Below are positions 7,219 through 52,430 of a stretch of DNA of 64,000 nucleotides, piece after piece (position 1 is the stretch's first letter; the number at the start of each line of letters is the position of its first letter). The translations under genes were made by a program, and so were the position numbers. Origin of the DNA: a virus. The notes beneath the pieces were generated by a model. That model was given only the letters and a program-made list of their open reading frames with translations, did not search any database and was not told where the DNA came from. Location of the stretch: positions 20,703 through 84,702 of IMG/VR virus record IMGVR_UViG_3300050821_001592; one strand, written 5' to 3'.

Positions 7219-7515
7219 CTAGAAATCTTCGCGCCGTCTCCGGCTATTGTCGGCAATGGTCGATAGACTCTTGTCCATCGAGTGGAGAAGGTCATCTTGA
7301 TTTTTCAGACTCGCTTCCATGTGAGGAAAATGATTGGTGGCGAGCGTGTCAATTTGTCCGATTGTCTTGCTCGCTTGTGCAGAGAGTCGTTCAAAATAGG
7401 TCGCTACTTTCCACGCAAAAATACACAACGTGGGCCAGCCAATGACCTGAAGATGCTGAGCTACCCATTCGAAAGGCGAACTATTTAATGTCTGTAGGTA
7501 CGTCAGAGGTATCAT
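7219..7515 (-). CDS. Small membrane protein, lysis region
   Basis: 98 residues from MIPLTYLQTL at 7515, behind AAGGAG. One hydrophobic segment (about residues 18-35, VIGWPTLCIFAWKVATYF) is followed by a helical, Ser/Asp/His-containing cytoplasmic tail (LSAQASKTIGQIDTLATN onwards) and a basic end RRRRED. It overlaps the 2-TM gene upstream. The layout resembles small phage membrane proteins that accompany holins; the exact role is not clear. Confidence 0.65.
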   Translation of the reverse strand: MIPLTYLQTLNSSPFEWVAQHLQVIGWPTLCIFAWKVATYFERLSAQASKTIGQIDTLATNHFPHMEASLKNQDDLLHSMDKSLSTIADNSRRRREDF

Positions 7516-7702
7516 TCGAAGCTCCTTGAGACTGTACGTAGGCGTGCCCTCCAAGGAAGCCTAAACAGGTAGTCGTGAACGCGACAAAACTCGCATCCAA
7601 TCCGTGGAATATGTGAATCGCCGCGCCGATGAGGAAAATGGCAGTACCGATAGCAACGTGCCCGTCGCTGTTGATTTTAGAAATCCATGAAGATATAGAC
7701 AT
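7481..7702 (-). CDS. Putative holin
   Basis: 73 residues with two hydrophobic segments (about residues 15-32, VAIGTAIFLIGAAIHIFHG, and about 36-54, ASFVAFTTTCLGFLGGHAY) joined by a short turn, and a charged, Asp-rich C-terminus. Small size, two membrane segments and position right after the endolysin-like gene (8 bases) fit a class II holin. The ribosome site is GGGGGC. Families of holins are very diverse, so this is by layout rather than homology. Confidence 0.6.
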   Translation of the reverse strand: MSISSWISKINSDGHVAIGTAIFLIGAAIHIFHGLDASFVAFTTTCLGFLGGHAYVQSQGASNDTSDVPTDIK

Positions 7703-7709
7703 GTGCCCC

Positions 7710-8162
7710 CTAGTCCCAGAAACTCAACGTATTTAGGTCCGCAATTCTCTGGTGTATGCGTTGGCCTGTCACGGGATTCGTAGCGGCGATGAGCTGCTTG
7801 AACCACGGTCTTTCGATTTTATTTAGAGCGCCGAAGTATAGTGCGCCCGTTTTATTCTCGCTGTGTGCCCCTCGGGTCATGTCAGAAACGGAACCATCGA
7901 ATATCCCGTCGACTGCGGAGAGGAGTTTGATGAATGTCGGTTCCCAGATTGATGGGTGACTGAGCGGGGGGATTTCATTCTCGGCCATACTTTCAGGAAT
8001 CGTGTCGAGAACACGGAGCCACGACCCCCACCCCAAGCGAACTCGATTAGCGAGGGTGTGCATTACCATTTGTCCCGCGAGATGACCGCCGCCGTATGAT
8101 TGGCCAAATCTCCAACCATACTCTACGAGTTTTCCCTTCACATAATTGTCTTGAGTTAACAT
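7710..8162 (-). CDS. Putative endolysin (SleB-like cell-wall hydrolase)
   Basis: 150 residues starting at 8162 behind AAAGGAGGG. The sequence has a helix GGGHLAGQMVMHTLANRVR similar to the G-x-x-AV-x-x-V-x-x-NRV core of SleB-type cell-wall hydrolases and a late SDMTRGAHSENKTGALYF segment matching their D-x-T-x-GA-x-(Y/H)F motif. No signal peptide is visible, so export would depend on the neighbouring holin. The 207 bases upstream (8163-8369) contain GC-rich hairpins but no gene that I can see. Confidence 0.6.
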   Translation of the reverse strand: MLTQDNYVKGKLVEYGWRFGQSYGGGHLAGQMVMHTLANRVRLGWGSWLRVLDTIPESMAENEIPPLSHPSIWEPTFIKLLSAVDGIFDGSVSDMTRGAHSENKTGALYFGALNKIERPWFKQLIAATNPVTGQRIHQRIADLNTLSFWD

Positions 8163-8369
8163 TGAGTAGCCTACCCTCCTTTCTTACTGCCTTACTAGGC
8201 TCACTCACGGCGGTTACCAGCCGCTTAGCAACGGGAGTGATATTAATAACACGGGTGGTAGGAAACTGCCGCCTACGTCTGCTGCACTCCGTTTATAGGC
8301 CTTGTATGTCAGCCGTGGAGCCGTCGCTCTGTCTACCTGAGACGTACACCCGTGATGGGGTACTGAAGG

Positions 8370-8804
8370 TTATTTCTTCGTCTTGGGTTCTGTCAACTTT
8401 CCTTTTTCCCGTTCGAGTTCTTCGTGAGTCGGGTAGTGGGGTTGGAACCTCGTAGGAGTCTCTGCATCCTCTTCAGGAGTCGCGTCGGCAGATTCTCCGA
8501 GATGGTTCAACGCAACGTAGTTCTCGCGAGTCATGGGGATTTTATATTTCCGCATGATATCCCCGATGGGGTCAAACGGTATGTTTTTATCCAGCACTCG
8601 TCTTGGTTTAATGTTTGCGGGGTTGCCCAGCGCAGCCCTGTCAACTTCCATATCGGGTGTCTGTAATGGGGCCTTGTCGACATTCATCTTCGCCGCAACG
8701 GGGGTAACCGTTTCAGGTGGGTCCGTATCAAGATGCGGTGCGGGGGTGGGCGGATTCGTCTGCTGAAGAATCCTACCCCCGAAATCTACGGGTGCGCCTG
8801 CCAT
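8370..8804 (-). CDS. Hypothetical Pro/Asp-rich protein
   Basis: 144 residues from MAGAPVDFGG at 8804 with GGAGAC six bases upstream; two earlier in-frame starts are less likely. The first half is Pro/Thr/Asp-rich and probably disordered. The second half contains a short folded stretch (PFDPIGDIMRKYKIPMTREN) and a Lys-rich end. It follows the giant internal protein gene by 48 bases and may be a virion or assembly protein. The function is not recognised. Confidence 0.65.
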   Translation of the reverse strand: MAGAPVDFGGRILQQTNPPTPAPHLDTDPPETVTPVAAKMNVDKAPLQTPDMEVDRAALGNPANIKPRRVLDKNIPFDPIGDIMRKYKIPMTRENYVALNHLGESADATPEEDAETPTRFQPHYPTHEELEREKGKLTEPKTKK

Positions 8805-48883: not shown

Positions 48884-49130
48884 TCACTGTCAAACGGTTG
48901 ACAGTGATGAATACTGTATAAGTCCTTTAGAATGAAGGGCCGACTACAATCACTGTCAAAACACCCTATATATATATACGTGAGGATGAGTTTTTTTTTC
49001 CTAATATAGGGGTATATATATACAATACTTTTGACAGTGATTGACGGGAAACTGTTGATAGTAAATAAGATACGCCGCAAAAACTACTCGACAGTGATTG
49101 ACAGTGATTGACCGTGATTGACAGTGATTG
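48882..49130. other. Iteron-type replication origin or operator region
   Basis: Copies of a ten-base unit ACAGTGATTG occur in both orientations: reverse at 48882-48893 and 48947-48960, forward at 48898-48908, 49029-49045 and as four head-to-tail units at 49091-49130 (one with a C change). Between the outer copies is AT-rich DNA with alternating TATATA runs (about 48968-49025). Iterons around an unwinding element, between the helicase and polymerase genes, are typical of a replication origin. The same repeats contain TTGACA, so an operator role is possible too. Confidence 0.6.
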
Positions 49131-49142
49131 GAGGAGGTAACT

Positions 49143-51167
49143 GTGGTAACATCGCAAAGAAGACTGTGGATGGATTATGAATCCCGGTCCCATATTGACA
49201 TCAAGAATTACGGTCTGGATAACTACGCGAAGCATCTGACAACCGAGCCGTTGATGATGGCGTATGCTTTCGATGAGTCCGAACCTAAGCTCTGGAAAAT
49301 TTGGATGGGGGAGGAGATGCCCGAAGACCTTAAAGAGGGTCTGCTTAACCCTGAGGTCATGCTCGGCGCATGGAATTTTAACTTTGAAAAAGATATAACC
49401 GAATATAAAATCGGGATTCAAACGCCCCTGTCCCGATGGTTCGACCCGTCCGTCTTGTGTGCGTACATGTCCCTCCCTATAGGTTTGGACCGGGCATCTA
49501 AGGCCCTCGGACTCAAAGAGAAGAAGATTCACCAGACGGGCCCGAAACGCGGTATCGCTTTGTTTTCAAAACCCAGCAAGACGAAGAAGACGTCCCTGAA
49601 GAAAGACCCAACTCTCCCGCCGACGTATTTCAAAGATTGGAACAGCCACCCCGAGGATTGGGAGATTTGGTGCCAGTACTGTTTGCAGGATGTCCGAGCT
49701 GAGCGAGAGGCATGGCATAGGGCCGTAGAATATAACTGCCCGATGACAGATGAAGAGTTCCGTGCGTGGCAGCTCGACCAACGGATGAACGAGACGGGCC
49801 CCTATATCGACGAGCAATACGTCACCAACGCTAAGGCTCTTGCTGAAGCTGAAGCTGAGGAAATCCTATCGGAGATTAAAGCCAACACAGGCTTGGAGAA
49901 CCCAAACAGTCGCGACCAGATGCTTGAATGGTTGACCGACCGTGGATATCCATTCACATCCCTCGATAAAGAGCATATCGAAGAGGCCCTGAAACACAAA
50001 ACTCTGAAACCTCTCGTCCGTCAAATGTTAGAACTAAAACAGAAGCTCGGCGGTAGTGCGTACAAAAAACTCGAAGCAATTCTGGACCGCATGGGGGTCG
50101 ATAAACGGCTGCGCGACCAGTTTATCTATCACGGGGCCCACACCGGACGTTGGGCGGGTCGTGGAGTACAGCTCCAGAATCTATTCAAGCCCGACCGTAA
50201 TGTCCTCGCGTACTCATGGGAGAAAGACACCACAAAGCGGTTGGATATCTACACGCGGGCTATCCGAACGGGTAAAAAGATTTACTCCCCGTTCACCCCT
50301 ATGAACCTCGTCGCAAGTACAATCCGGTCGGCGTTTGTCGCCACACCGGGGCACAAACTAGACGTCGGCGATTTAGCACAAATCGAAAGCCGGGTTCTGT
50401 GCGTTCTCGCCCGTTGCGTATCGATGTCTGAGGCATACGCGGCAGGACGGGACCTCTATAAAGAGTGTATGGCGAAGCAGCTCGGGATTGATATATCTCA
50501 GGTCACGAAGGCCCATCGCGACCGGGGCAAGGTCCAAGTTCTCGGCTGTGGTTACGGGATGGGTTGGGAGAAGTTCATCGCGTATGCCGCAACTTACGGA
50601 CTCATACTCACAGAGAAAGACGCTAAGGAAAGTGTCTACGGTTTTCGCGAAGCCTATCCTGAAATACCGGATTTGTGGAAAGAGTTCAACACGGCTGTTA
50701 TCCGAGCTGTGAAATCAAACATCTGCGTCTACGTGAAGGGATGTGTCGTTGACGGAAGAGACGCTCGCGTTCTGAAAATTAAGCTCCCTTCCGGTCGGGC
50801 ACTTCACTACTTCAGTCCGTACGTCAACATCAGTATGAAGTTCGGGCGTCCGCTGGAACAGGTGTCTTACACTCAGTATGACGCCAAGGGTTCGAAGCTT
50901 TCGGATTTGTACGGCGGGCTTATCGTCGAGAATGTCGTGCAAGCTATAGCTAGGGACATCCTATTGAACGGCATGTTCGAAGCGGAGAAAGCGGGCTTTA
51001 CGATAATCATGACTATTCACGACGAAATCGTAGCAGAATCTTTAATAGATTCAAAATTAAACCTTGACACCCTGCTAGATTGTATGGTCAAATGTCCTCA
51101 GTGGGCCGAGGGTATGGGCTTTACGCTCAAGGCTGAAGGGTATGAAGGACTGTATTACAAGAAATGA
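49143..51167 (+). CDS. DNA polymerase, family A
   Basis: 674 residues from GTG 49143 (GGAGGAGG site); the earlier TTG at 49128 lies inside the ribosome site. N-terminal 3'-5' exonuclease: LWMDYESRS (D11, E13), AWNFNFEKD and QYCLQDVRAE. Polymerase: HTGRWAGRG, motif A LDVGDLAQIESR (about 406-417), motif B RDRGKVQVLGCGYGMG (from about 459) and motif C MTIHDEIVAE (about 626-628 HDE). The motif order and the length match T7-like phage polymerases with proofreading. It is probably the replicative enzyme. Confidence 0.92.
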   Translation: MVTSQRRLWMDYESRSHIDIKNYGLDNYAKHLTTEPLMMAYAFDESEPKLWKIWMGEEMPEDLKEGLLNPEVMLGAWNFNFEKDITEYKIGIQTPLSRWFDPSVLCAYMSLPIGLDRASKALGLKEKKIHQTGPKRGIALFSKPSKTKKTSLKKDPTLPPTYFKDWNSHPEDWEIWCQYCLQDVRAEREAWHRAVEYNCPMTDEEFRAWQLDQRMNETGPYIDEQYVTNAKALAEAEAEEILSEIKANTGLENPNSRDQMLEWLTDRGYPFTSLDKEHIEEALKHKTLKPLVRQMLELKQKLGGSAYKKLEAILDRMGVDKRLRDQFIYHGAHTGRWAGRGVQLQNLFKPDRNVLAYSWEKDTTKRLDIYTRAIRTGKKIYSPFTPMNLVASTIRSAFVATPGHKLDVGDLAQIESRVLCVLARCVSMSEAYAAGRDLYKECMAKQLGIDISQVTKAHRDRGKVQVLGCGYGMGWEKFIAYAATYGLILTEKDAKESVYGFREAYPEIPDLWKEFNTAVIRAVKSNICVYVKGCVVDGRDARVLKIKLPSGRALHYFSPYVNISMKFGRPLEQVSYTQYDAKGSKLSDLYGGLIVENVVQAIARDILLNGMFEAEKAGFTIIMTIHDEIVAESLIDSKLNLDTLLDCMVKCPQWAEGMGFTLKAEGYEGLYYKK

Positions 51168-51359: not shown

Positions 51360-51361
51360 AT

Positions 51362-51778
51362 AGGGGGAACCAATCCCGAAACGAATGAGCGAGGCTAACC
51401 TTGGGACCTCGCCCTTGAATCGGTGGAAAACCCCTCTAATTCTAGAAACAGGCGTGGATGGGAGATTCGGGTCATCCTAGGATTGACACGTTGAAGCCTG
51501 TACCCGTCGAGTCCAGTCCACACAACGACGGGAATTTTAAGTTTGGGTAGCGCAGGACTTCCGTTGCGGTCTTCCGGGTGACCGGAAACACACTTGCCGG
51601 GAGTCCAGAGCGGACCCAATTATGGGCATACGCTGTTAGGGAAAGCGGGCCTTAAACCCGCCACAGCATTGCATGGAGACGTTGTCTAAAAGAAAACAGG
51701 TAAAGACTGAGGTAACTCTGCTAGTAGCCTGTTAGTAATCCATGCAGAACGACGGTTCGATTCCGTAGGTGCCCACCG
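51362..51778 (+). ncRNA. Structured non-coding RNA with tRNA-like 3' end (class unknown)
   Basis: No protein frame fits, and the region folds into many paired segments: GCGAGG/CCTCGC (51389, 51407), CAGGC/GCCTG around CGTG/CACG (about 51450-51500), CCCGTCG/CGACGGG (51503, 51526), TTGGGT/ACCCAA enclosing GGACT/AGTCC and a TTCCGG-GTGA-CCGGAA tetraloop hairpin (51542-51619). The last section (about 51623-51778) pairs GGGCAT with GTGCCC, contains GCGGG/CCCGC and TGCATGGA/TCCATGCA, and ends with a T-arm-like ACGG-TTCGATT-CCGT and CCACC. It begins at the promoter start. It does not match RNase P, 6S or SRP that I can see. Confidence 0.6.
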
Positions 51779-51779
51779 A

Positions 51780-52240
51780 ATCTAAGTTTGCGGCAAGTCG
51801 TGGATTACCTGCTACGCCTATCGAGGGCGTCGTAATGCAGGAGAGCCGCAAAAATTATTACGGTATGAAGGCGTGGTTTCCATTGCCAGACGCGGGTTCG
51901 ACTCCCGCCGCCTCCACCCGACAACACGAAGCGGACTTAGAGCGCAAAACCTTTTGGGGCAGCGATGACGGCTCGCCATTAGGGAGTAGGCTCGAACGGC
52001 TCCGACCTAGACAGTCAACTAGCGTATGCTTCGTGTTGCCCGGTGGGGGCGTCACGGAATCGATGGGGATGATGAAGGCACGCTGGACTGTACGAGGTTA
52101 CATGGCCCTCGTTAATCAGACACGTAAATCACAAATGCCACGCCAAAACGTGCGTTTGCTGCCGCTGCTGGACGCTAACCCGTCCTGCACGACTGAGTTC
52201 GCGGGGCACTTGGAAACAGAAGCCCCGCAAAAATTGACCT
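51780..52240 (+). ncRNA. ssrA: Circularly permuted tmRNA
   Basis: The 3' acceptor half comes first: T-arm GCGGG-TTCGACT-CCCGC (51892-51908) and CGCCTCC-A-CC (51909-51918). The 5' half follows: GGGGGCG (52045-52051), which pairs with CGCCTCC in all seven positions (one G-U), then a D-like ACGGAATCGATGGGG as in tmRNA. P2 pairs TGGGGA/TTTCCA and CACGC/GCGTG link the halves. A processing stem CAACACGAAGC/GCTTCGTGTTG (51922-51932, 52028-52038) joins the halves. PK1 CGAGG/CCTCG (52093, 52107) precedes a tag frame from GCC 52137 to TAA 52178, ATPKRAFAAAAGR. A GCGGGGC/GCCCCGC stem (52201, 52222) follows. It rescues stalled ribosomes. Confidence 0.8.
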
Positions 52241-52430
52241 AATCCTGATTCCCAGAGGCGGAACATGCTAGCCACCGTTTGTTGGGATAAAGGAAGCAGT
52301 GAGGGGGCACAGGGCTCGCAAAGCGAGACCTGACTAAACGCTGGGCAGAAATGCCGAAGCCCCCGAATTTGACGTTGCTGTCTGACCATCCGAGCCTTGG
52401 GCTACAGACAGGCGCTTAATTGAAACACGG
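52241..52430 (+). other. Structured non-coding downstream segment
   Basis: No gene is visible. Strong paired segments include GGGGGC/GCCCCC (about 52303 and 52358) enclosing a CTCGC-AAA-GCGAG hairpin within CAGG/CCTG arms, and CTGTCTG/CAGACAG (about 52380-52412). It may be the 3' part of the tmRNA precursor, a separate small RNA, or a transcription-ending structure before the gene at 52481. Confidence 0.5.

Follow-up and report, generated by a model that had tools for sequence, protein, structure and literature searches.

Circularly permuted tmRNA genes in phage genomes are an established kind, and 53 two-piece tmRNAs from public phage genomes have already been published (PMC9004378). In E. 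coli, recognition of the tag by ClpXP depends above all on the terminal Ala-Ala and its free carboxylate (PMC7652416), and in a survey from 2014 Carsonella ruddii was the only known case of a charged tag end (PMC4131195). A preliminary description of the locus studied here had proposed a phage-borne permuted tmRNA and had left it undecided whether such genes were described in phages, which they are.

The window, by which we mean the whole stretch of 64,000 nucleotides that was analysed, spans bases 20703-84702 of a virus record in IMG/VR that is 84.7 kb long. The only tRNA or tmRNA gene that ARAGORN called there is a permuted tmRNA (tmRNA*) at 51824-52269 (+). RF04321 (tmRNA_permuted) was the sole Rfam family above its cut-off in the window, matching at 51859-52172 (+) over the full model length with 70.5 bits (E 1.6e-11; gathering score 47). 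The locus is a phage-borne circularly permuted tmRNA: the acceptor half lies upstream of the 5' half, P1 pairs across the two halves and carries the G3-U70 wobble (the alanine signal), and a T-arm and a tag frame with resume region and stop codon are present. The gene, its parts and its neighbours are arranged as follows.

49128-51167 (+), DNA polymerase (family A), phrog_17, upstream of the tmRNA in the same order as in relatives
51624-51777 (+), RNA2, a second conserved, tRNA-shaped RNA of 154 nt without Rfam match
51824-52269 (+), permuted tmRNA gene (ARAGORN span; also Rfam)
51892-51908 (+), T-arm GCGGG-TTCGACT-CCCGC of the acceptor piece
51909-51918 (+), P1 3' strand CGCCTCC (51909-51915), then discriminator A and CC (ACC end, 51916-51918)
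51919-52044 (+), intervening sequence, 126 nt, closed by the processing stem
51922-51933 with 52027-52038, processing stem, 12 bp including one G-U
52045-52051 (+), P1 5' strand GGGGGCG, start of the coding piece; its third G pairs with U70
52092-52112 (+), PK1 region, stem ACGAG (52092-52096) with CTCGT (52108-52112), from sequence and Rfam alignment
52137-52178 (+), tag reading frame ATPKRAFAAAAGR, with GGA CGC (Gly-Arg) at 52170-52175 and TAA at 52176-52178
52201-52228 (+), 3' terminal hairpin GCGGGGC...GCCCCGC of the coding piece, weak beta_tmRNA match

All elements named in the preliminary description, among them the acceptor pairs GGGGGCG/CGCCTCC, the T-arm, PK1 and the tag frame, are thus present, and its 11-bp processing stem is contained in the 12-bp stem. 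The extent given there, 51780-52240, falls short at the 3' side, where the ARAGORN span continues to 52269. Models for the alpha, beta and cyano permuted forms had been suggested as a check, and the proposal was not refuted by it: the merged RF04321 recognised the gene. None of RF01849, RF01850 and RF01851 reached its cut-off. For beta_tmRNA (RF01850) the match was partial (8.5 bits against a cut-off of 84, with clan competition hiding lower matches), and a relative, L166, scored 66.8 bits, below the same cut-off. Folding of the 421-nt tmRNA stretch was better than that of 100/100 shuffles (z -3.58).

Relatives were gathered via the DNA polymerase of the record (27-77% identity), and no DNA-level relatives of the window were found in the phage collection searched. 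Nine relatives besides the window have a permuted tmRNA downstream of the polymerase, and a T-arm pattern scan of IMG/VR found dozens more phage permuted tmRNAs. In most of the group P1 is GGGGGCG/CGCCTCC. Both strands are altered in Tunturi_3 (GGGCTTG/CAAGTCC) and in L349 and L357 (GGGCCTG/CAGGTCC), with pairing and G3-U70 retained, so that the co-variation between the halves on which the preliminary description had staked its proposal was indeed observed. G3-U70 is invariant among the copies read, the T-stems differ across the group with compensation, and the processing stem, 9-12 bp long in the nine phages compared, is for the most part unlike in sequence from one to the next. The 3' end encoded in the window is ACCC, where the other copies read by script have ACCA. 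The tmRNA of L344 may be decaying, because its T-loop is shortened and its end is ACT. This copy, together with the lack of the last A of CCA in the window, could point to a non-functional remnant of a captured bacterial gene, but the compensatory changes, the invariant G3-U70 and a tag end that changes only synonymously argue against a remnant, which we regard as highly improbable.

The terminase of the record has one strong match among phage isolates, Tunturiibacter phage Tunturi_3 (48.5% identity over 94% of the query). This nearest isolate has a host belonging to Acidobacteriota, and its record contains a permuted tmRNA that is not annotated (63.3 bits; PP885686.1 88172-88396, minus strand). 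The word tmRNA is absent from the main text of the paper describing Tunturi_3. The same record also has an annotated release factor with RF-1 domain (ORF125). Because of this one relative and a similar tRNA-like domain, the window phage probably infects soil Acidobacteriota. In that phylum, one-piece tmRNA (RF00023) was above cut-off in 86 of 99 genomes. RF04321 exceeded its cut-off in 6/199, and all six were rejected as permuted genes: five are one-piece tmRNAs according to ARAGORN (four of them beside tRNA-Asp), and the sixth (G057) is one-piece according to RF00023. A permuted gene was thus confirmed in none of the 199 genomes, where the inspection took in part of the weaker matches.

The tRNA-like domain of Terriglobia, GGGGGCGTCACGG...GGACGCGGGTTCGACTCCCGCCGCCTCCACCA, is nearly identical to that of the phage, GGGGGCGTCACGG...AGACGCGGGTTCGACTCCCGCCGCCTCCACC. 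The phage therefore has an Acidobacteriota-like domain in a gene order unseen in that phylum. The phage RNA, with its host-like domain, could also serve as a decoy that competes for host SmpB or AlaRS and dampens trans-translation of the host instead of tagging; an RNA of the type of phage DS6A, which has a tRNA-like domain only, does inhibit tmRNA (PMC4131195, PMC11915505). A pure decoy would need no tag frame, start region or stop codon, however, and these are retained in every member examined, which makes this reading very unlikely.

The polymerase-linked group together with L172 gave 11 distinct tags:

window phage, ATPKRAFAAAAGR, ends Gly-Arg
L369, AETKPLAMAAAAGR
L345, AKTNTLAMGAAAGR
L347, AETEKPRAFAAAAGR
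L355, ATTKPRAMAAAAGR
L349, ATTEKPKTFAMAAGL
L357, ANTNVKAMSASAGA
L344, ATTEKPKAMSATAGM (read by hand)
L342, AKTNVKAFAAHA
L343, ATTEKPKAFAAAA, ends -AAAA
L172, ATPKAKAFAAAA, ends -AAAA

The window tag does not end in the C-terminal Ala-Ala of the ClpXP-type ssrA degron. A Gly-Arg end is found in 5 of the 11 tags (five phages), and is not universal in the group, as two tags end plain -AAAA and one -AAHA. Ends other than Ala-Ala occur in 9/11 group tags compared to 8 of the 64 further unique viral tags that the T-arm scan yielded, kinship not being controlled. Among those 64, 56 end -AA and one lacks the final Ala, while the tags of 51 bacterial one-piece tmRNAs end -AA (49) or -TA (2). A charged final residue was seen in 0/64 and 0/51 of these tags, respectively. 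Scanning for codons of -AAAGR recovered the four known relatives and six other matches, and the latter were rejected since ARAGORN finds no tmRNA there. L349 and L357 have closely related DNA polymerases and yet quite different tag frames, which suggests an exchange of the tag part.

Between the window phage and L369, the last six codons and the stop codon show five synonymous differences and no amino acid difference. Local hairpins around the stop codon were found in all six members folded. They extend over the Gly-Arg codons, whose conservation may therefore be due in part to RNA structure. This bears on a reading as an ordinary phage tmRNA, in which ClpXP or some other host protease degrades the tagged chains as usual, and neutral drift or RNA structure near the stop codon accounts for the tag end. 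Other host proteases with other rules exist, and the -AAAA ends of L343 and L172 fit this reading as well. On the other hand, the window phage uses different codons and a different hairpin and still encodes Gly-Arg, and the excess of ends without -AA in the group (kinship not controlled) speaks against it. We consider an ordinary tmRNA possible but rather unlikely.

We favour a functional permuted ssrA of a probable Acidobacteriota phage that works with host SmpB and adds a degron-weakened tag, and give this a probability of roughly 0.55. The gene form, the pairing, the tag and the conservation can be read in the sequence; how the RNA would be processed, charged and used, and what would become of the tagged proteins, is inferred. 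The precursor would fold such that the processing stem closes the intervening sequence. Host RNase P and 3'-end enzymes would then turn it into two pieces, an acceptor and a coding one, held together by P1 and P2. The host CCA-adding enzyme would complete the 3' end, of which the window copy encodes only ACCC, and host AlaRS would charge the RNA via G3-U70. Host SmpB, assumed because the Pfam families listed for this record include no SmpB, would bring it to stalled ribosomes, where translation would append A plus ATPKRAFAAAAGR. By the E. coli rule, a tag that lacks Ala-Ala-COO- should be recognised less well by ClpXP; with Gly-Arg at its end in place of Ala-Ala, the tag should make rescued chains poor substrates of host ClpXP. 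The infecting phage would then have ribosomes recycled while fewer tagged chains are destroyed, or while their destruction is redirected. Such a course would give the phage the control over ribosome rescue that the preliminary description had supposed.

Outside the window, the record encodes a compact Clp/Hsp100 ATPase of 418 aa that consists of the D2-like part only (G000 (L300) 7440-8696). It matched ClpC chains at 1e-57 and has the Walker motifs, the pore loop and a ClpB_D2-small domain. All eight homologues compared retain the pore loop GYLG and a tripeptide [LIF]GF; the tripeptide sits at what we take to be the ClpP-docking loop of ClpX, ClpA and ClpC, and on this tripeptide ClpP docking is putative. 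Also outside the window is a T4-type RNA ligase (L300 3854-5086), and a GroES-like (Cpn10) match is among the ORFs of the record.

Tunturi_3 and G261 set aside, the compact Clp is present in all eight tmRNA-group records that are 75 kb or longer; the two set aside have ordinary -LAA/-VAA tags. Among 28 further records with a tmRNA, four gave a Clp match, which in every case lies in an open frame of 734-862 aa. The distribution within the tmRNA group, with the motifs common to the eight homologues, would fit a private pair of tag and protease, where the phage Clp docks host ClpP, reads the modified tag and provides its own degradation route. Most of these phages are related, though, so co-occurrence is confounded. 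Moreover, no tmRNA match was seen in G262 although it encodes the Clp protein, the tags of two Clp carriers end -AAAA, and the docking is deduced from the tripeptide. We regard such a pair as possible but unlikely.

RNA2 ends 46 nt before the ARAGORN start of the tmRNA. It has an acceptor and a T-arm, with a long structured arm where a tRNA would have its anticodon loop, and is not an ordinary tRNA: neither ARAGORN nor Rfam (including RF00005) gave a match, and no anticodon loop was recognised. Its acceptor stem has G3-C70, which is not the alanine signal. A model (R1) was built from five members found by sequence, the window and four relatives; L355, outside the model, scored 93.8 bits with two acceptor pairs changed on both sides. 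Across six sequences 96% of cells pair, and 14/25 pairs change on both sides, a count reached in 0/500 shuffles (shuffled mean 5.1; slid controls 0-4). The alignment was fitted to the tested structure, which favours that structure, but the margin is large. RNA2 is a candidate new structured RNA family.

Strong matches (at least 93 bits) were found in seven phages. In five, RNA2 lies less than 1 kb from the tmRNA, on either side, and in the 332-kb record L073 it lies among tRNA genes. The 60 Acidobacteriota genomes searched gave no strong match and two weak ones (at most 27 bits). L373 was discarded since only the pattern and not the rest of the RNA matched, as were L374 and L375, which look like ordinary tRNAs. 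Seven records combine tmRNA, RNA2 and compact Clp, kinship not being controlled; W02-W04, three huge phages in which a Clp match was seen, have neither RF04321 nor RNA2 and were set aside. We give little credence to a fully separate phage pathway, in which ClpXP would read the -AFAAAAGR tag poorly, the phage Clp would read it, and RNA2 would belong to the same module. Structured-looking leaders with G-rich and C-rich arms were seen at 51360-51620 and 52300-52360 of the window and at 8390-8480 and 9200-9330 of L342, in the latter directly before a ribosome-binding site and ATG; they are possibly a repeated regulatory element.

What is most unusual about the locus is that its tag ends -GR, that the phylum probably hosting the phage uses one-piece tmRNA, and that a second RNA precedes the gene. 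The combination of a -GR tag, a phage group of one-piece hosts and an adjacent tRNA-shaped RNA was not found in the open-access literature searched. The unannotated Tunturi_3 tmRNA, the Acidobacteriota-like domain in a permuted gene, the -Gly-Arg tags, RNA2 and the trio in seven phages look new. The locus bears on why phages carry tmRNA. A degron-escaping tag, if true, would mean that the virus wants the ribosome back and not destruction. The host-like tRNA domain suggests either that the permuted form arose separately in phages or that host sequence recombined into a permuted gene.

Compared with known systems, the locus shares gene order, P1, T-arm, G3-U70 and tag frame with the permuted tmRNAs of Alphaproteobacteria, Betaproteobacteria and Cyanobacteria (RF01849, RF01850, RF01851), and fits their merged model RF04321, unlike the older lineage models. 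Methylophilales phage Melnitz and related marine phages likewise carry a permuted tmRNA gene (PMC9004378). That gene is akin to the tmRNA of Alphaproteobacteria, which usually have the two-piece form, whereas the probable host phylum here has the one-piece form; unlike the Melnitz type, the window tag ends -GR. The one-piece tmRNA of Acidobacteriota (RF00023) has a nearly identical tRNA-like domain, but is not permuted and has tags such as ANQQMAYAA that end -AA. The tmRNA of Carsonella ruddii belongs to a reduced endosymbiont genome (PMC4131195), whereas here five phages share the Gly-Arg end.
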